From Phoenix dactylifera (Eukaryota; Streptophyta; Magnoliopsida; Arecales; Arecaceae): DNA of 64,000 nt. Positions 5,688 through 64,000 of this stretch are shown piece after piece (the first letter of the stretch is position 1; the number at the start of each line of letters is the position of its first letter). Made by a program: the position numbers and the translations under genes. The stretch is from the NCBI RefSeq assembly GCF_009389715.1, contig NC_052401.1, forward strand, positions 3,259,530-3,323,529, read 5' to 3'. A model generated the notes under the pieces. The model searched no databases. It had not been told where the DNA came from and saw nothing but the letters and a program-made list of their open reading frames with translations.

Positions 5688-6889
5688 TCAAGAGGAGATC
5701 CCAACACCCAAGAAATCGATAAAGGGAATATGCTTGCGTTTCAAGGACTCGTCGCCATCATCTTGCTGGTTATTATCAGTTCTACGGTTCATTGCTCTAG
5801 CTGAAGAATCCCCAAGTCTAATTAATTCACTTGCACTCACTACCTCACTTCCACAACCATCGCTTGTGCCGGAGAATCTGATAGAATGAGGAACCACCCG
5901 GGTGTAGCCTGCGTCGCACAATGCATTGAAACTCCTGTAAGTATGATGAGAAGGGCGAAGGGACTGGTCATGGAAATGGGATCTCTGGAGAACATCATAA
6001 TTATATTTAGGACTATAGAAGTTCCTTCTCTGAGCGCCAAAAATTTGACGTGATGAGGAGATATTCGATCCAGAGAAGGCCCAAGGAAGTGATAAGCTTG
6101 AAGGTGACGCAGGGAACCTATCACTGGTGGAGCTTCCAAACTCAAAGAGTCTACAAGCATTAAACTGGATGTGATTTGAGTTGCTTCCCTCTTGAGGAGC
6201 TGAGCATGAAGCAAAAAGGCCATTCGCAGTACGATCGGAGCTGCTGAGGATGTGATCCTGACAACTTCTCTTGCCAAAGAGCCTCGATCGCTCTCTGTGC
6301 CGTCGAGCCATGATCACATGCCAATGGTTCTTCACAGCATTATCGGTCCTCCCAGGGAAAAGTCGGGATATCAACGCCCACTTATTTCCATGAATGCGAT
6401 GAGCTGTGAGGAGCCTCTCTTCCTCTTCCTCCGTGAATGGTCTCTTGTTAATTCTCGGGTCTAGTTGGTTAAACCACCTCAACCTACAGCTCTTTCCTGA
6501 AAAGAGCGAGCCATAAGAACTCATATCTTAGAAAATAAGATAAAGGAATTTGCCATAGCTTCACAAGCTTGAATTTGGAGACTTGTTTATGAGATAATAG
6601 GGATTACTATTGTGAGAAGAAAGATGGTAGAGATGTTGTAGTAGCATCTCTTCTTCTCTTGTGAATATAAACATACCGATATCGGAGAAGACTATTGAGA
6701 GTGACGAGTTGATCTTAACTATTGGGACACACCTGATCTTCCTTGCAGCTTCTCAGCGATTGAGTTCCAGTTCTGAGGACCGTACTGCTCGACAAGCTGC
6801 CTCAGCTTCTCGTCTTCGCCAGGTCTCCAGTGCCCGCGAGGGCAAACCTTGGTGTCATCGGATTCAATGGCTCCAGCTGACGATCCCAT
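5688..6889 (-). CDS. R2R3-MYB transcription factor, subgroup 21 (MYB52/54/56/105/117-like)
   Basis: Nuclear DNA-binding transcription factor. Exons read on the minus strand: 6889-6733 (phase 1, donor CAG|GTGTGT) and 6496-5688 (acceptor TTTTCAG), giving 321 aa. Repeat R2 spans about residues 20-66 with Trp at 21, 41 and 60; R3 follows with Phe73, Trp92 and Trp111. The stretch [18 protein letters not shown] after R3 and the C-terminal [10 protein letters not shown] are typical of the MYB52/54/56/105/117 group, known from work on secondary walls and organ boundaries. The tail between is Ser-rich. The start is the only ATG that gives the short acidic leader before CPRGHW. Many R2R3-MYB genes have a second intron inside R3; here R3 is read without a break. 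Which member of the group it is cannot be settled here. Confidence 0.95.
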
Positions 6890-17400: not shown

Positions 17401-20400
17401 CCCTTGATCAATGTACTGGGAACAACATTAAATGCAAGGTTCCACGTAACAATTAGTAGTCACAAGCATTGAATATCTATGCCATTACTTGTCCTGAAGA
17501 TGTAACAAAGGATCCTCTTCTGTAGTGGAATTTGAAACGTGATCATTACTTTATGCTATCCCATGAAGTTCTCAAAATATACCCCTTAATCTCGAGCAGT
17601 CCATGTAACATTGTCTATATTTAAGGCAACAGAAATCGGAGATTAACAATTATTATTAACAAAAATAAGGATAATTTAGTTAGGGTTAAAGTTGGGTTCA
17701 ATTATGTGCTCTGGCTGCCAAAGAGGTGGAAATGTGATACTTACATATGAAAAATAAAAAAGCTTTACAAAGTTCCAACCGATTCTAGGCATCTCATAAT
17801 TATTTAAGCAATGCTACCAATCTAAGACATCAAACTACTTGTAGTCAATGTTTTTACCACACGCAAAAGATAAAATTATATGAAAATAACAAATAAGTGA
17901 AAACCTCTCATCTACTCTAAGCATTGTCAACCTTCTCATGTGCTGAGTTCAAAAGGTAAGCTGTGACAGACTTGCCTAGGCCCTTCCTGGTAAATCATAT
18001 GCCACTTATTGCATATTACTCTTACACATGCAAACAACTGCTGCATACTTAATGAAGACACAGACACTACTTAAATAGTATATGAGAAAATGTACTACAA
18101 CTCTTCATTTGTATAATATGATGTATGGCCACTAACAAGCAGATTTCTTGTTCAAGGAAATTGCAAAATTGAAACATATACAACTTCAGAAGAAGCTGAG
18201 ATACAATAACTTTGACAAAATCTCCAACAGAGTCTTTTTACATTTGTGCAGCTATTACATAATCCTGCAATATCCCTATATGGGTAGGGACATACATTGA
18301 AGAATTTGAATCAATTAATTCCAGGAGGCGGAGAAAGATAGGAGGAATCATAAACACAAGCCAGTTGACACTGAAGTCTCAAAAATTTATATACTGCCAA
18401 TCACCTTTAATGTGGTAACCCACAAAAATGTACATGACTAGAGACCCCCGACTCATTGATTACAAAAGGGCCCAACATCGCCCTCTCATAAAATAAATAA
18501 ATAAATAATTCAAATCATATCTGTGTCAACTTATGGTGTATCCCATGGAAATCACAACCAAGAATCAAGAAAACAGTCAAATAATTGGGTAATGGACGAC
18601 ACAAACATCAGAATATAGTGCAAACTTAGGGCCCAACCTCACCCCCTCCCAAATAAATTAAATAAATAAATAAAATCATAACTATGTCAACCTATGGTGT
18701 GTCCCATGGATATCACAACCAAGAATCTAGAAAACTGACAAAATTGTTGTGTCAATGTAGGACACAAACATCAGAATATAGTGCAAAGTTTACCATGTCT
18801 AATCTTCAGCAGTGCTAGTTCCATAGCAGCTCTTGCATCTTCAATACTGTCATGTCCATTTCCTGACACCTGGATCTGTCGGGATAGAAATTTCCTTGAC
18901 AGGACCCGTAAAGCTGTCTTGTGACCACGGGGGTGCTTGTACAAAACAGCAGTATCAATCACCAAAGCATGAGATATTTTCAATGCTAAAAGGTCATTCT
19001 CCAGGGAATGACCTACAAGAATCGTTTCTTTGCGAACAAGCTCAAGAAATTCTTCCTGAAAACATAAATCAGGACTACCATCAGATAAACCGGTTTAAAA
19101 CTTATAATTATGTTTTTGTCTAGAAGAAGAATACAAGCATGCATGCATACATAATACTTAACTAGACAAGACATACATATAAGAAACAATTTACCATTTA
19201 ATATATAACAGTAAAAGGTCACCTCCAAAATATTAAACAAGAACAAAAGACAAACTCTTGTACCTGAATATCCTTGAGTGTTGTTGTGACACCATTTAGC
19301 ATTTCACAGGTAATTCCACTATACCTGCATATCCCAAAATATTGACTTTTACAAGAAACAGATTGATGTAAGCCATTAGCAACATATGTTATAACTATAA
19401 CTATAAAGATCGCAAGCACAAATTCTCATGGTCTTATTGACCATATTTACCACAAATATTAAACCATATGTAAAAGGCAGCCACAAACTATAAGGTTTTC
19501 CATGTGGCATGGGATCAAAAGCACATAGACTCAGATGTCCCTTTATAAAGGCATGAGCAGCCCCTAAATTTTACATAATTAATAGGGATAACCTCAGATT
19601 GAAAGGTGGTAAATACAATGCTGTAATATCTAATAATTCCTAAATATCATTTTTATCTATTAATTCAATCATTAAAATAACAATCCATAAGTTGAAAATG
19701 CATCAATCTTCTAGTCCTGTCACTTTCAAACGCATTGTTCAGACCATGGTCTGCCGTACCAGTCCGTACCGGCCGGTACGAGCCGGTACATACCGGTTCG
19801 GCCTGGGACCGGTACCGGATCAGTGTGGAATCCGGTACCGGTAGCTTATCATTGGAGAACCAGTATAAAACCGGTACGGACTGGTATGGGACCGGTACGT
19901 ACCGGTCCAGACCGCCATCGGTACGCCGACCAGTACCGGTACGACGGACCTTGGTTCAGATTATATGATTAAAAGTCATTAAGATTAAAAAAATATATGG
20001 AGTATATAGTTTGCCCTCATAAATCCTATGACATACAGGATTCTTCCTCTTTTTTTTCAACGAAATGACAACAAACACTATGTAGCTTGCCCTCATAAAT
20101 CCTATGATATGAACGGTCCACATGCATAATTTATTACAAATTGATATTCAAAGCAAGCAATTAAGCCAGCATGAATAAATATACAGATTAACACAGAAAT
20201 TAAATTTAACTTAGAAAGTGTAAATTCTTCATTTCTAGAGCATGTGAAAGCAACTTTATTGACATAATTCATTGTAATCATGAACTATTCTTCTATCATG
20301 ACAGAATAATTCAGGCAGTTCACAGGTTAGCTAAGGAATATATCTATCGGTAGCTGATATGTTCCATTTATAAACTTCATGATCTCAAAATAAATGTAAT

Positions 20401-23400
20401 ACGCACCTAGTATTATAGTCAAGGATAGCATTGGAAGGCTTAACTAATTTGTCTAGCACAACCTGGAGTGAGAAAAGTATAATCAGATTCAATCAGTAAA
20501 CAGTAAACATTTGGAGAAATTGCTTAAATTCAAAGAATACAGCCAGTCAGAGAAATAACACAAGCAATATACTATGTTAAAGGAGAAAAATACAAGGCCC
20601 AATAATAACACTTGATCATTCACAGACAATTATATTCATCCAGGGTGAAAATCATTTGCTGATGAACAGACATCCAGAGTGGAAGGATCCAGACCATTTA
20701 AAAATAAAGAACACCAAGCATACAATACTTATGAATAAACTGCATTGTTATAAACCAGCAAAAAAGTACCAATATTTTGTACTTCAAAACTTTCTTATAG
20801 TGCTGGTGCCCTTAGGTTATATGCTATCATTCATCCATCATAATTCTACTTGCTACCAGTCACCAGCTAATTCAATTTTTTTTTTTGTTTACTTTCTTCA
20901 TAATCCATGAAGTTGGGTATAACTGCGGCTAGAAGACATGCCTATTTTTAACAGCTTGGAGAATCAACACATATACTTTGGAAGAAAAAGATCAGTGGGA
21001 ATCTGACCTTAAGGAAAATGTTTGATATCCACATCATATTCATTTAACATAGTCATAAATATGCATGAGTTGATAATGTGCATGAGGATTTCATATATTA
21101 TAGTAGAAATCTTTGATTCCATGTGCTGGCTTGCAAACATTGAGCACCGACCACACTTAAAAGATTCATATATTTTCCATTTATATAAAAGATCAAATGG
21201 CTCAATAAAAGGACAGCAACCTGGATGGTCACTCTCTGGTATATTAGAATTTCGTTTTCTCATTATTTCAGACGATTAAAATAATTCTCATAGAAGATGA
21301 GTTATTCTATAGCAAAGGGCTACTGCAATTAGAGGGCAGCCTTGGTGCAACAGTAAAGTAGCTCCATTGTGACTTGGGTATCATAGGTTTGAAATACAGA
21401 AACAACTTCTCCATATGCAGGGGCAAGTCCATATACATTTGACCCTCCCCAAATACTACAATGGTGGAAGCCTCGTGCATTGGGACGCTCCTTTTAATGA
21501 GTTACTGCTATTAAACCATTCAACTGCATTTACGTCCATAAGTGCATTTGAAGTGCATAGACCCTCTAGACATGTGATTCAAAGAAGAAATTGCAAATTA
21601 GAAGCCAACAGATTGAAAAGGGAATGGTTTGGGTTCTTCTCTTTATTCTCTCAAGGACCATTTTACATTTAGAAGCTAAGCTGATCATGGTGGATAAAAG
21701 CTTCAATGTTAAAGCAATTGTTGGTAAAAACATGGGAGTAACATGGGAGTAAAAAATGGACAGTGCTTAAGAAACCAATGCAACTGGGAGGGGAGGATGA
21801 CCATGAAAAATAAAAGCAATATTATTTTGTAGTTAAAGCAGCCTAGAAACATCCTGATGCCTACATGGAAAGCACCCCAGATGTATCAGAAGAAGATGAA
21901 TTTAGATTGGAATTCTTTCAGAAAGTTGGTACGTACTGGAAGAGGAGATGCATTTGTTTAACTCATCTAGGAGAAATAATGGAGTAACTTTATGACGAGG
22001 AACCATTCTTGTTGAGGACCACGTTGATGAAAATATTGTGATTCAGTGGAACTATTGAGGTAGAGCCATGGAATCAGGCTTTCTTAACCAGTTAATGTAA
22101 AGCGGACAGGAGGAGGGAATCCTTCATGAAAACTCACATCTGCTGATGAAAACTAAGATTTCACCCATTTGAGATGAAGGGTCACATTCTACTCATGCCC
22201 AAGTTCAAGCTGCCAAATTTTCTTCCTAAAAGAGAATCCTTATCTCATTTTTTTCTTCTATGCTGTTATACCCATAGAAAATGACTTAGCCATATTTGAT
22301 TAACAAGCCAACAGGGCCCTTGAAAAAGTAATAAATTAATCTTCTCATAGAAGTTTTGAGCAAATAGTTTCTAGGAAGCATATATAGTATACACGACTAT
22401 AACAGTTTTTAGGATATTTTCTTGATGACATAAAGAAAATGGGATTACCTCTCCTGCAACATCAACCAACGTCACCCTTGTAAGTTCAAGCCCCTCAACG
22501 GTCACACACTGATAAAATTTAGCAAAAAACATCAGGAAACAAAAATGAGGCATCTTAAAAAACTTGCTAGGGCTCAAGCATTCCAAGAATTATATCAAGA
22601 GAGGCCAACAAATAGTGATTTCAACAACGCTCACAAAAATCTCCAATGGTATACACTGCTGAGATGTGGTTCTCAGTTGCATGGTCATTTTTCTGTTTTC
22701 AATGTGAGTTGCAAACATAACATATGCAAAAATATATTCAAGGATATGTTCGGTTCACAAGATTTGGTAAACATGGCATTCCCTCCATTGATATCAATAG
22801 TAAAACAGCAGAATAGTCGGTAGCAATTTTTAAATCTTATCAAATTCAAGCTCCAGAATAATACCTAGTTACCTACACTTGGTGACAAGTATTAATTTAT
22901 GCATAAGATAACCACATTTATAAAGGATTTAAAGAAAACATGAACCCATGTGTTCGAGCCATCTACAATGACAATGCCCACTCCGAAATATTTAAAAATC
23001 TTAAACTCAACCGACTTAGAATAAAACGGTGTTTTCATTTGGTTTTGCACTTCATTATACCAGTGCTTTAACAAATGAATAAACGACTTAGAATATACAG
23101 ATGTCACTTGGTAATATGTAATGACCCGAAATCTAGCCAGTATCCTTAACCTAGCCAATGCAAATCCAAGAACCTGAGGGGCTTGTCATAATGCATAAAA
23201 CATCAATTTATGATTGCTAAACCTACTCTGATGGCTGTCAAATTCAATTCCACATATTTTGTGGGTGTTTTTTTTTTGTTGTTGTTTTGTGGGGGGGTGA
23301 AAGTTGAAGCCTCCATGCTTATTACATAGTAGCTGCATGCAGCAATAAAATTTTGATGCCTATTAGTGAAGCAATAATTGCTAAACGTATGCTGCTTGAA

Positions 23401-26400
23401 GAGTACTCCATTTTCTATGTTATTTCTTTTTATACACTACTTCCTATTATCCTTTTTCGATTTGGGATTTATATAAAGCTAACCAAACTTCTTCATCCTT
23501 CTTATTTCCAACAACATTGTTAGCAATAGTTTGATATATAAGTCAAAGATGTTAGTTAGTGTCTCAAGGTATGCAGTACTGACCGAACCGACGTACCGGT
23601 ACCGAACCGGTTTAGGAAAAAAAAACGCGTGGACGCATTATACTAAATGCCACTTTGTGGCATTAACAGCCCACGAGAGGCAGCCCGCATGGGCGCGTGG
23701 GCTCGCTGCCCCGCGCGTGCGATTCCCAGCGTGTGGACGCGCAGTTTGCACCGTGTGGAACGCACGCGGGCGCGAATCGGGGACATATTTCTCCACTCGC
23801 GCCCACGCCCCCGCGCGTGAGCACTATTCCCCTGGCCTCTCTCTCTCTTTTTTTTCCTTTTTTTCCTTCTCTTCTTCTTCCCAAGCCGTTCTCTTTTCTT
23901 CCCCTCTCTCCTCCTCTCTTTTTCCCTTCTCCCACGAGCAAGAAAGGTCTTCTTCCCCGCGAGGTGCTTGGGAGAAAGAAAAAGGCCCGGTAGTCTTCTT
24001 CCCCGCAAGAGAGGTCTTCTTTCCCCCTTCGACAGAAAGTCTTCTCCTCTTTCCCTTCTTCTTCCTCTTCTTTCTTCCTCTTTCTTCCTCTTCTTTCCTC
24101 TTCTTCCTCTTCTTCTTCCCCGCGAGTACCGGTGTGAACCGCCTTCCTCTTCTTCCTCTTCTTCTTCCTCTTCTTTCTTCCTCTTCTTTCCTCTTCTTCT
24201 TCTCCGCGAGTACCGGTGCGAACCGGTGCGGTTCCCACCGATATCGGGCTTGTACTGGTGCGAACCGTTCAGTTCCAACCCCTTTGGGTCGGAATCGAAT
24301 TCTATGGTTGTACCGTACCGATGCCGGCCGGCACCGGTACAATACAGGCTGAACCGGTCGGTTCCGAGCGGTTCAGCAGACCTTGGTGTGTCTATCATAT
24401 GCAAGACGATTTAATCTACATTACATATAACTGAACCATTGCCCTTGTCAGCGTAGTATTGCACTTATTCTATCATTTTATCTTTAGGGTTACATTTTAT
24501 CGAATTAATTCAAAGTAGGCTTTGATTCAAATGCTCTGGCTTGATAATTGAGAGTTTATCTGTGGTTGGCACCATATATTTAACTCATGAAAAGGTGTTA
24601 ACCGCACTGATGATATCTGTTCATTGACCGACATTAATAGCTACATCATAGAAAAAATTTATCTCTCTTCATATTTTTAAGAGATTAAGCAATTTTGTTA
24701 ATTGGATTATAACAATATGACCAGCATGGATGATTCTTCTCCCTTATTACCCTTTCATGTTAGTCATAAAGGAGAGAGGATAATTATATTAAATGACATT
24801 CAATTAACAAATTGCACTGCAATTATATGAGACAAAATGCAACTCTAAAGAACGCTATCAGTAGGCATCAGAGATAACTTTCTGAATTCAACACTCAATG
24901 TTTTTATCTGCAGTTTTATCACCTCATGCTCCAAAATCTTAGGAGTTGTAATAATTGTGATATCTCTCCATGAAAGTCAAAAGAGTTTCAGTGCATTGAA
25001 GCCTTACCATCTCACAGTCAAGTGCAAGAATTTCATAGGGAGAACACCCTAAAGGAGCAGGAATAGTGGAGACAAAACCTGCAGCAAAGGGTAAGCATAA
25101 AACTTTCGAACTCAAGAACTGAAACAACAGGGAGGGGGAAAACAAGCTATTATGCAAAGCAGAAAGCCACCTGGTTGACTGAAACAATAGCCATTATCCT
25201 CTAGCTCCTTGTTGGAAAGCTTGTAATATGAAATAGGGAATGGTAGTTCCTTTCGATTTTTCAAAGAAAATGGTTTTTCTAAACCAGAATTACAAATCAT
25301 GAATGATATTAGATTGTATATGAATTTTCAAATCAGCATGAAATGGAGATAAGAGGCAAATACAAATAAGTGAATCTTCTTTTGCACTATTACTGACCTC
25401 GTTTTGAAGATTGATCGAGCATCTGGGAATCCGAATCAATCTCCTCGTGTTTTCTTTTCATTCTGCATGTTAGAAGTGCATCGATTGTGTGCATCTCATC
25501 TGACACACAACTAGCAATAACACATACAAAAACGCATTAACAAGAAATTGCCATAGTAGATGCATGATATAAGTTGAACTATACAGCAAACTTCCTGAAG
25601 CATCAATGCTTTAAGAAACAACATACCGTAATGCTCAATACTTATTGTTTTGCAACAGTGATAACAAAAACTACTATTTCATTACAAACCTCAGAGCTAA
25701 AACTGGCTTAGGAGTACCACAACTTTCCCTTAAACCAGCAAGTGTGCTGCACTCTGACATATACAAGGCTGCATCCAAGCCTGGAACATAGAGCAGGACG
25801 ACTTTTCGTATAAGTGGCTTGTTCTGAGAATCACAAAGACACTAATCAGTGTTGAAATAAACATTCTTGTAAATAGAAAGTGATCTCAGACAGCTGTGTG
25901 CAACTACATAGAGCTGTACAATCTTTGAAATATAAAAAAATTAAGTGTACCATAAGTTTTTCTACAGTGCTATCCTGCATATAAGGAAAAAGTTTAATCC
26001 AGATTAAGGCAAACAGAATAAAAAGCAAAAAAGCAAAATCAAACAGTAGTAAGCTTCTGATTCTAGTTTTGTTTAATACTTAGCCATTTCATGTCATCTT
26101 GACTTTCTAGATTCCTTTTTAGTGTCATTCTCTACATATGAAAAGAATAAAAAAATTTAGCATAAAATTTGAGTCATGGTTGTATTAATGTGCCTAATTA
26201 AGGAAAGATCTCATTGGACTTACAAATGGTAAGTCAAACGGGACATAGGAAGATGTATTAAGAAGATATTCATGCAGTCATGAGGATATTGATAGTGTCG
26301 AAGCAATACTTGAATGTTGCCTCTGCTTTTCATGATTCTAAATATGTTCTACCACCACTACAAACTGTGAAAATTCTTCCATTCCCACAACTTGCTCCTA

Positions 26401-33300: not shown

Positions 33301-35003
33301 TTATTAGTCTAGGACAGTCCTCCAACCAACAGCTTAAACTGCAAGTCCGTAACAGGTGACATCAGAGCCAAGCCCAATGTGCGTCACAACCTAATCAGTC
33401 ATGAGAGACCCTCATTAGAGGATACAGCCCAGGCCATTGGTGGGTCCTTCCTCTCAAGTAGGGGACAATCCATGATAAGGATGTCACGAGGTTGGTTGGG
33501 GAGAGAATATCATAGTCCCACATCGACTAATAAAAAGGGTGTCATATGAGTTTATTAGCCTTGGTCAAAGAATGTTGTACCGGCCTAAACTGCCCAATTC
33601 AGGATGTACAAAGCCGAACCTGGGGCAGACCGGCATGGTTCCATCCCTTGGTTCAAGAAACTAGGGAAGGGGGGAAGAGGGAGAAGGCAAGAGAGGAAAA
33701 GAGAGAGAGGGAGGGAGGAAGGGAGCGATGGAGGAAGGGAGGGGGGGAGAGAGAGACTGAGAGAAGGAAAGAGAGGGGGCTTTTAAGCCCCCATCTCCTC
33801 CAGCACACGAGAACAAGGGCTCCCCCTCCCTCCCTCCCCCTCCCTCTCTCTCCCTCTCCCTCTATCTTTTCCTCTCTTGCCCTCTCACTCTCCCCCTTCC
33901 TTGCCAGCTCTATTGTGTTAGTACGGACACAAAACGAAACAGCACAGTATCACACCATACCGTACCACTGCCGATACAAGCACAGCAAGCCTTGGCCTCG
34001 GTAGTCCTCCACCCAGCAGCATAAGCTTTTGGGTTGTGAGTCTATGAGACATTGCTATATTCCAATTCAGAGCTATATCTATTGCCATAAAAGTAGTCTA
34101 AGATCATTCTGAACTACCAACATCCATGCCATATTTCTATATATGTGTGCGGTTTGATTAATTAAGCTCTTTTGGATCAGCCCTAATTCCACTAATCCCC
34201 TTTCCCATCAAGTTTTGACGTGGCCCTTTCTTACCACCTACCAAACCATTTCAGCCTGCTCTCATCATCAGTTCCTACTCTCATTTTGCTAATCACGGAT
34301 GCCCTTGTCAAGCTTAACCATTTATTTGCAACAAATTTTTCATTCATCTAAATAATTTTTTAACAACATATTGTAAAAATCACTAGAAAAACAATGATAC
34401 GCCAAGCAGAAGTATCTCACACGCCAAAAATCACAATTGGATGATGGCACTAAAAATCTCTAGCTTATCTGTCAATAAGTTCGCAATTTTCTCCCTTAAC
34501 GGATAAATTAGCAGAAACCATCATAAGAATTCACTTTTCTAAAGCGATCCCACTTCAAAGAGATACCAAGAAGAAAATGAGTAAAATCACATTCTGATTC
34601 GAATTTGACCCAAAAGAAGGTAAAGAAATGAGAAATTAAAGAGAAAAACCCCCAAAAAGAAAGAAAGAGTTTGCTTACAAGGGCGAATGCGAGAGAAGGA
34701 AGACGGCGATGAGGAGGGACGGCTCCGGAGGACGGGCCAGAAGTAGAAGCAGTTGACCGCCCAAAGGAGGGGAAGGAGGGCGAAGCCCCACAGGAAGAAT
34801 CTACGGGCGTAGGCGACCGATTCCTCCTCCGAGAGGCCCAGGGGGCCGTCCACCGTCGGCCATTGGTGCGAGCTGGGGTCGCTATCCCCCCCTCCACCTC
34901 CTCCACCGCCACTTCCGGCGGCGTCGCGCCGGAGGATGAGACCCGATCCCCCGAGGTGGCGCCGCTCCTCGTCCTCCTCGTGCTGTCCTCGCCCCTCCAT
35001 CAA
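30327..35003 (-). CDS. PEN-2: Gamma-secretase subunit PEN-2 homologue
   Basis: Small membrane subunit of the presenilin/gamma-secretase intramembrane protease, found in endomembranes. Two exons (minus): 35003-34679 (phase 1, donor CCTT|GTAAGC) and 30487-30327 (acceptor TTTTGTACAG); the split codon makes Tyr109 and restores the conserved IRPYVLRSAIGF. The protein is 161 aa. Residues 1-56 are a low-complexity leader with a Gly run (32-39). The PEN-2 core starts at LSEEESVAYARRFF (57-70); hydrophobic segments lie at about 69-92 (ALLPLLWAVNCFYFWPVL) and 113-134, followed by GGEHLFGPVWQDLV and the C-terminal ADRLGLAGW. The Arabidopsis protein is about 146 aa, so the difference is in the leader. 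The second Met (35000) is an equal alternative start. The 4.2-kb intron contains a small LTR element with a nested GTACCGG element. A CT-rich leader lies just upstream. Confidence 0.95.
33260..34051 (+). mobile_element. Small LTR (TRIM-like) retroelement with a nested insertion
   Basis: Left LTR about 33260-33354 (CATAGTCCCGCATCAACT ... GTAACA) is followed by TGACATCAGAGCC, a variant of the initiator tRNA-Met primer-binding site. The right LTR starts at 33511 (CATAGTCCCACATCGACT), is broken at 33564 by the GTACCGG element, and resumes at 33996-34051. No coding sequence. In the PEN-2 intron. Confidence 0.72.
33565..33995. mobile_element. GTACCGG-repeat TIR element, copy 3 (431 bp)
   Basis: Starts TCAAAGAATGTTGTACCGGCC; its end, reverse complemented, starts CCAAGGCTTGCTG. 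Flanked by CCTTGG (33559-33564) and CCTCGG (33996-34001). The centre is a GGGAGA-rich tract followed by a CTCCCT-rich tract. Nested in an LTR. Confidence 0.75.
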
Positions 35004-59843: not shown

Positions 59844-60271
59844 TGTGAGGATCCATGTGGGCATGTGTTTAGTCCCACATCGATTTTTCGTTAGGTAGAT
59901 CTTGGGTACTTATATAGAATCAAGAAATTCAAATAATACCTTCCGACTAGCCATTTTAAGTGAGGTCCTAAGTTGTTATATATGGTATCAGAATAGACCT
60001 GAGCCATAACCTATGTAGACTAGGGGACACTGCAGCACGGATCTATTGGAGCTAACCACAAACCGATTATAGTATTTGTGATTAGATTTGAATCCTTAGC
60101 CTGACGAGGATATCAGGACTTGAACGGAGAAGTATGTGAGGACTCGTGCGGGCGTGTATTTAGTCCCACATCGGTTTTTCACTGGGTAGATCTTGGGTAC
60201 TTATACAGGATTAAGGAACCCAAATAATACCTTCCGGCTAGCTATTTTAAATAAGATCCTAAGTTGTTACA
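59844..60271 (+). mobile_element. Complete TRIM (miniature LTR retrotransposon), 428 bp
   Basis: Two 137-bp LTRs (59844-59980 and 60135-60271) start TGTGAGGA and end TTATA/TTACA, with TTTAGTCCCACATCG, TAGATCTTGGGTACTTATA and AAATAATACCTTCCG in both. A primer-binding site TGGTATCAGA at 59983 matches initiator tRNA-Met. The 154-bp interior has no ORF. Flanks GGCGA and GGCTA may be a 5-bp target duplication with one change. Confidence 0.88.
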
Positions 60272-63159: not shown

Positions 63160-63297
63160 AGTGAGGACCCGTACAGAACGTGTATTTAGTTCTATATTGG
63201 TTATACGCCGAGAAAATCTTAGGTATTTATACATGATTAAGGAATCTAAATAATACCTTTTAGCTAGCTATTTTGGGTGAGGTTCTGCGTTGTTACG
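63160..63297 (+). mobile_element. Solo LTR of the TRIM-like family
   Basis: Collinear with the LTRs of 59844-60271: GTGAGGACCCGTACAG, TATTTAGTTCTATATTGG, TTAGGTATTTATACATGATT, TAAATAATACCTTTTAGCTAG, GGTGAGGTTCTGCGTTGTTAC. About 138 bp, no primer-binding site follows. Confidence 0.8.
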
Positions 63298-64000
63298 AAA
63301 CCATATAAGATTGCCAAGCATGCATGCCCCTATCAATGCATTCTATTTTTCTTCTTAGAGAACTTTCCTCACTTTTTCTTCTTGATAGCTGAATCTGATA
63401 CAAGATGCAAGTCTGCAACAAAGTCGGACATCCATTGATTGCTTAATTTGAACCAAAGCCAAATATATGCTCCAAGAACCAGAGTCTCTTCAAATTGGCC
63501 TCCTTAGGCTAATCTTTTGTTTGTTGAGGACTACTTTGAAAGGTTCAAATCCGACGTGATTTGTCATCAATACTTTTGATAAAGGGAGCATTATATTATG
63601 AGGTACCAATCATTAAGATTCTAATAATATCTTCATAGGCTTTGTGCCCCTAGCAATCCAAATGGGGCCCTGCAAAAATAAAACCTTCATTACTTCCCAA
63701 CAAAGCAATTGACACTATGTCCTTGTCCAATGCCCAAGGATTATAGCATGATGCTTTGGAATTATGTAGTTGATCGCAATCAAAGATGCATTTCCCGGCA
63801 CATTCATCGGCCTAACAACAATGACCAAAGGGAACACGAGAGCGAACTTAAGATCTTGCTATCGTCTCATAATGTGATGATTGATTCTCCATCTAATCTC
63901 TACTCTTTATAGTTTGGTATAGGCCCTTGGTTTTAAAATTCCATCAACATGCTTAGATTTAGTCAGCGAAGATTCCTTTGAGTTTAGTGAGGATAAGGTT

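Follow-up and report, generated by a model that had tools for sequence, protein, structure and literature searches.

We describe here three GC-rich, GTACCGG-dense elements in a 64,000-nucleotide stretch of the date palm genome (Phoenix dactylifera, contig NC_052401.1, positions 3,259,530 to 3,323,529; here called the window). They are almost certainly non-autonomous hAT elements, namely miniature inverted-repeat transposable elements (MITEs) and slightly longer derivatives, with 8 bp target duplications. A sequence-only reading of the window had recognized three elements with related inverted ends of the CCAAGGTCTGCYGTACCGG type, and these do exist, with the end motif GTCTGCYGTACCGG present far above chance: there are 454 exact matches on the two strands of the 773-Mb genome, compared with three for a backward-read control. 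The same reading had assigned a 6 bp duplication and excluded hAT on that size, and neither point stands, because the true duplication length is 8 bp and a transposase-bearing relative with the same ends encodes a hAT dimerisation domain; hAT is therefore the answer. A candidate new transposon superfamily is thus removed, and is replaced by a defined hAT system with source transposases for two of its three families.

Element boundaries and the length of the target duplication

Copy 1 is a 209 bp MITE of family 1 at window positions 19745..19953 on the plus strand, flanked by GTTCAGAC (19737..19744) and GTTCAGAT (19954..19961). Copy 2 is an 821 bp non-autonomous hAT element of family 2 with a CT-rich middle, also on the plus strand (23565..24385), between TAGTGTCT (23557..23564) and GTGTGTCT (24386..24393); at this size it is long for a MITE. 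Copy 3 is a 429 bp fold-back non-autonomous element of family 3, again on the plus strand (33566..33994), between GCCTTGGT (33558..33565) and GCCTCGGT (33995..34002), whose 75-nucleotide GGGAGA/CTCCCT arms (33671-33745 and 33822-33896) are 81% complementary. The elements are as real as first proposed, and what shifts is their limits, with each one starting and ending one base further in; each of the three 6-mers that had been taken as duplications corresponds to positions 2-7 of an 8 bp repeat, and these repeats match at 7/8, 6/8, and 7/8 positions in copies 1, 2, and 3 respectively.

The terminal inverted repeats (TIRs) are hAT-like, of the form CAAGG...CCTTG, with exceptions at the left ends of copy 1 (CATGG) and copy 3 (CAAAG). 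TIRs of the hAT superfamily are of the CA(A/G)GG type, and short repeats of this type (CAAGG, CATGG, CAAAG, and CAGGG) are seen across the window copies, their relatives, and the transposase-bearing elements. With up to three mismatches GGTCTGCYGTACCGG matches three times in the window, against 0.42 expected and with one of 100 shuffles reaching three; the matches are both ends of copy 1 and the right end of copy 2, with none in copy 3. A strict scan for paired ends (at least 9/12 complementary positions and a duplication of at least 7/8) finds copy 1 alone, and nothing in the reversed window. Copy 1 is also strongly self-pairing (z -7.8). Pfam domains are absent from the four open frames of these elements (three in copy 2 and one in copy 3), and an Rfam scan of the window gave no match at the gathering threshold.

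The outermost base of the apparent TIR is variable, and among 30 loci retrieved using copy 1 it is mostly identical to the base at the opposite flank. The outermost C or G of the sequence-only reading belongs to the target duplication and not to the terminal repeat. For the register test, elements were taken as CAAGG...CCTTG, end pairs were picked by terminal-repeat mismatch alone, and the flanks were compared afterwards. Of 88 loci, 68 were retained, with L069-L071 (the same places as L004, L006, and L007), L031 (a duplicate of L026), and 16 further loci having no end pair within 1 kb with four or fewer mismatches per end being dropped; copies 1 and 2 of the window are among those kept, as L009 and L039. 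The 8 bp register gives a mean match of 0.89, with 43/68 perfect and 58/68 matching at 7/8 or better, although L035/L036 and L044/L046 share flanks and were both kept, such that the independent sample is at most 66 (42 perfect). No copy is perfect at any other length tested (3-7 and 9-13 bp), where means run from 0.21 to 0.31, and the 6 bp register is no exception (0.30, 0/68). Position by position, agreement is 0.82-0.94 within the eight bases and 0.12-0.46 outside of them, and when flanks of different copies are paired at random 6/8 is reached in 2.9% of draws. Among the 43 perfect duplications there is a T at position 2 in 26, an A at position 7 in 31, and both in 17, with background frequencies of 0.29 for T and 0.30 for A, in agreement with a 5'-nTnnnnAn target preference.

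Joined insertion flanks were also compared with fetched DNA, and related empty sites were found for three insertions. The cleanest are those of L006, where a neighbouring repeat at the same locus aligns ungapped over 112 columns at 79% identity with a single AATAGAAG, and of L074, where L066 aligns at 70% identity, ungapped near the junction, with a single GTTGCATC. Alignments of L074 with L015 (63%, many gaps) and of L012 with L049 (68%, gapped near the junction) are weaker. Tabulating the duplication lengths and aligning empty with filled sites, as the sequence-only reading had advised, thus reveals a single 8-mer and not a 6-mer, whereas its broader proposal of mobile elements with TIRs and target duplications is borne out. 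The target duplication is 8 bp. There is a general lesson here, in that a terminal C or G that varies between the copies of a family can cause the duplication to be read one base short on each side, and hAT to be wrongly excluded.

Three families, and transposase-bearing relatives of two

A genome search for DUF659 (1,003 candidates, 150 scored) yielded a partner for family 1 because one match fell between two genome places of the GTCTGCYGTACCGG motif. This element, L108:96-4571, is 4,476 bp long with AATTGGAT on both sides as a perfect 8 bp duplication; its left end is identical to the motif at 16/16 positions, its right end has three mismatches of 16, and GTACCGG repeats are present at both ends. 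On its minus strand, open stretches encode zf-BED (E 6.8e-6), DUF659 (E 5.5e-56), and Dimer_Tnp_hAT (E 7.5e-12) domains. Bases 9-75 of copy 1 align with one end of this element (87%) and bases 145-209 with the other (83%), leaving an unaligned middle of just ~70 bp, and copy 1 therefore reads as two ends joined; a reversed-sequence control gives no match to the L108 element for copies 1, 2, or 3. The larger relative with the same ends and a transposase that the sequence-only reading had advised looking for is thus at hand in this element, and in the second subfamily described below, with none found for copy 3.

Relatives of the DUF659 stretch are numerous (1,891 candidates), and among the 102 scored, which include the query's own place, 37 are at least 98% identical and 17 of these have an uninterrupted 614-amino acid frame. 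These near-identical open stretches make family 1 a candidate for recent activity in the host, and the families may be active at present, although the L108 copy itself need not be, since its coding region is interrupted. When the ends of six further transposase copies were fetched, three had 8/8 duplications, two of them with the same sequence and so perhaps reflecting one event. When the DUF659 stretch was searched against PDB sequences, there was no match at E 0.1. We also note that two further family-1-like copies lie downstream of the L108 element (L108:6733-7108 and L108:7713-7889), with the 8/8 duplications GTCTATAC and ATACATAG, and that matches to the 614-amino acid transposase group form inverted pairs ~4-5 kb apart at several places, such as C51:290159 (-) and C51:294440 (+), C13:662870 (-) and C13:666645 (+), and C9:9111350 (+) and C9:9116525 (-), which may have arisen by local re-insertion or may be elements dimerised in inverted orientation.

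A second transposase subfamily is 81% identical to the first in the DUF659 stretch. Both of the places fetched have 8/8 duplications (CATGTACC and GGTGATAT) surrounding elements of 4.73 and 4.79 kb with the ends CAGGGTCTGCTGAACC / CAAGGTTCGCGGTACC, and no comparable duplication is seen in a control with exchanged flanks (0 and 0). These ends resemble those of family 2 (CAAGGTCTGCTGAACC / CAAGGTATGCGGTACT and similar), and copy 2 can be aligned over its final 176 bases, starting at the very terminus, to one end of the transposase-bearing element C14:8225049-8229777 (72%); at its other end no alignment to a second-subfamily element is reported, and the likeness is confined to the terminal repeat. 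A dimerisation domain in this subfamily is suggested by alignment to the L108 region, as the fetched 3' stretch L122 starts inside the region matching the L108 dimerisation domain and aligns onward at 69-84%. From these sequence similarities, copy 2 appears to be a derivative of this related subfamily.

First-look genome searches returned 1,524, 528, and 165 candidates for copies 1, 2, and 3 respectively, with 40 scored for each, and these are loose counts and not copy numbers. For clustering we used the 60 copies of the register test with a duplication match of at least 6/8. Copy 1 groups with 46 of these and copy 2 with 13 (617-849 bp long), in both cases with the window copy itself included, whereas copy 3 groups with none and its relatives were found by its own genome search. 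GTACCGG occurs 569 times in the 20,184 bp of the 60 copies, as opposed to 77 times in 152,959 bp of their flanks. Copy 1 has the properties of a MITE, being short, non-coding, and present in many copies, with ends and duplications common to a coding family; copies 2 and 3 are likewise multi-copy, and a coding family with common ends was found for copy 2 and not for copy 3. That the three middles differ was correctly noted from the sequence, but the suggestion that common ends mobilise different cargo is better replaced by three derivative families: because each middle recurs in a multi-copy family of its own, the differing middles denote separate multi-copy non-autonomous hAT families.

Copy 3 is a member of the third family, with ends CAAGGAATGTTGTACC / CAAGGTTTGCTATGC. 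Its left boundary is independently supported, since four listed genome pieces start exactly at 33566 and none, the copy itself apart, starts earlier. Two of the four fetched relatives have clear duplications, of 8/8 (613 bp) and 7/8 (699 bp).

Evaluation of the hAT assignment and a plausible mechanism

Several observations weigh against assigning all three copies to hAT. Copies 2 and 3 fail the strict window scan, and as they are too weak alone they rest on their genome relatives; the copy 2 duplication moreover matches at just 6/8, and eight of the 68 copies in the register test match at five or fewer positions. The L108 coding region is broken into three separate open stretches, and for three of the six further transposase copies the retrieved sequence does not contain a convincing second end (5, 3, and 4 of 8 positions). 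The ends are absent from 12 sampled hAT 3' flanks of 1.2-1.4 kb, drawn from a PF05699 search with 150 scored places. Within family 3, one relative is ambiguous, with right ends at 255 bp (7/8) or 579 bp (5/8), no right end was found for another of the four, and right ends were chosen with the duplication contributing to the score, unlike in the 68-copy test. Finally, no transposase source was found for copy 3 on comparison with the C14 ends and one further DUF659 place, C109, whose left end is of the copy-2 type.

There are several alternatives to consider, the first of which is a refinement of the hAT assignment and has about an even chance of being correct. Copies 2 and 3 could represent hAT lineages that are alike in their ends only and are moved by different transposases, as the ends of copy 2 fit the 81% identical transposase subfamily better than the first, and copy 3 clusters with neither of the other families. 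However, CAAGG and a GTACC-like stretch are common to the ends, and both transposases belong to one DUF659-hAT group.

A Pack-type model, in which one set of ends captures and mobilises arbitrary cargo, is improbable. The three window middles are indeed mutually unlike, and in the stretches examined neither the copy 2 nor the copy 3 middle matches the transposase-bearing elements beyond the terminal regions. But both middles are found again in further, separately duplicated insertions (13/60 in family 2, itself included, and the family 3 relatives), the four open frames of copies 2 and 3 lack Pfam domains, and the unaligned middle of copy 1 is short (~70 bp).

A new superfamily with a 6 bp target duplication is very improbable indeed. 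The inner six bases around copy 1 do match at first sight (TTCAGA/TTCAGA), and a C or G often stands outermost in the apparent terminal repeat; that base nonetheless tracks the opposite flank, agreeing at position 1 in 60/68 copies and at position 8 in 56/68, and when the boundary is moved one base in, 8 is the sole matching register. The 6 bp duplication is thus refuted by the register test (n=68) and by the single 8-mers of the empty sites, and hAT transposase domains lie inside the same ends. An immobile satellite or simple GC-rich repeat is the least credible alternative and is refuted, in spite of strong internal GTACCGG repetition (12 occurrences in copy 1, and the enrichment in the 60 copies), by dispersed copies with individual 8 bp duplications and related empty sites.

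For the non-autonomous hAT elements proposed here, the mechanism favoured by the evidence is cut-and-paste transposition, which would depend on a hAT transposase acting in trans from another genomic locus and containing BED zinc finger, DUF659, and dimerisation domains. The transposase would bind the CAAGG terminal repeat and, through its BED domain, the subterminal GTACCGG repeats, a role for which Hermes offers the analogy; the element would then be excised and reinserted at a target staggered by 8 bp, giving rise to the 8 bp duplication. Copy 1 would have arisen by joining of the two ends of a coding element with loss of the coding middle. A more tentative and rather doubtful extension is that this hAT group has been active recently, and that dense, palindromic GTACCGG arrays near the ends of its three non-autonomous families and of two or more transposase subfamilies serve as BED binding sites, so that MITEs consisting of almost nothing else out-compete coding elements.

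Other features were also seen. Among ten open reading frames in the window, Pfam identifies Myb-like domains in one and nothing else; this open stretch (5688-6527, minus strand) has a Myb-like DNA-binding domain (E 6.7e-19) and is probably a host gene. Four window segments (1127-1238, 59844-59992, 60135-60258, and 63161-63299) match one repeat that is also present in the right flank of the L023 insertion. The 3' flanks of another hAT group (L101, L102, and L105) contain GC-rich stretches, for example GGCACGGCCCGC in L102, which may be a different subterminal motif.

Comparison with known transposons

The six end strings of 15-19 bases have no match in the open-access text searched, and among the matches listed for hAT and MITE, date palm, palm, and DUF659-hAT literature none describes these families in its title or the start of its abstract. 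On this literature comparison, the families rank as no more than new members of an established kind. Duplications of 6-7 bp are characteristic of Dada, IS3EU, and other superfamilies, and the likeness to Dada and IS3EU extends only to the apparent 6 bp duplication, as the elements described here have 8 bp duplications and hAT transposase domains.

Closer parallels are provided by plant hAT MITEs, including BniHAT-1 and BniHAT-2 of Brassica nigra (PMC7385995) and nDart1, dTok, and nDaiZ of rice (PMC12595863). As described in these papers, they resemble the window copies in being short, non-autonomous, multi-copy hAT elements, whereas the window families are set apart by their GC-rich composition and density of GTACCGG, and copy 1 by its strong self-pairing. 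Hermes, according to PMC10368747, has a BED domain that binds subterminal repeats, generates 8 bp duplications, and prefers 5'-nTnnnnAn targets. The system described here is similar in its 8 bp duplication with T2 and A7 enriched, in the BED domain of its transposase, and in a repeated motif clustered at both ends; it differs in that the motif is GTACCGG, for which BED binding is suggested by the parallel with Hermes itself, and in that the transposase contains DUF659.

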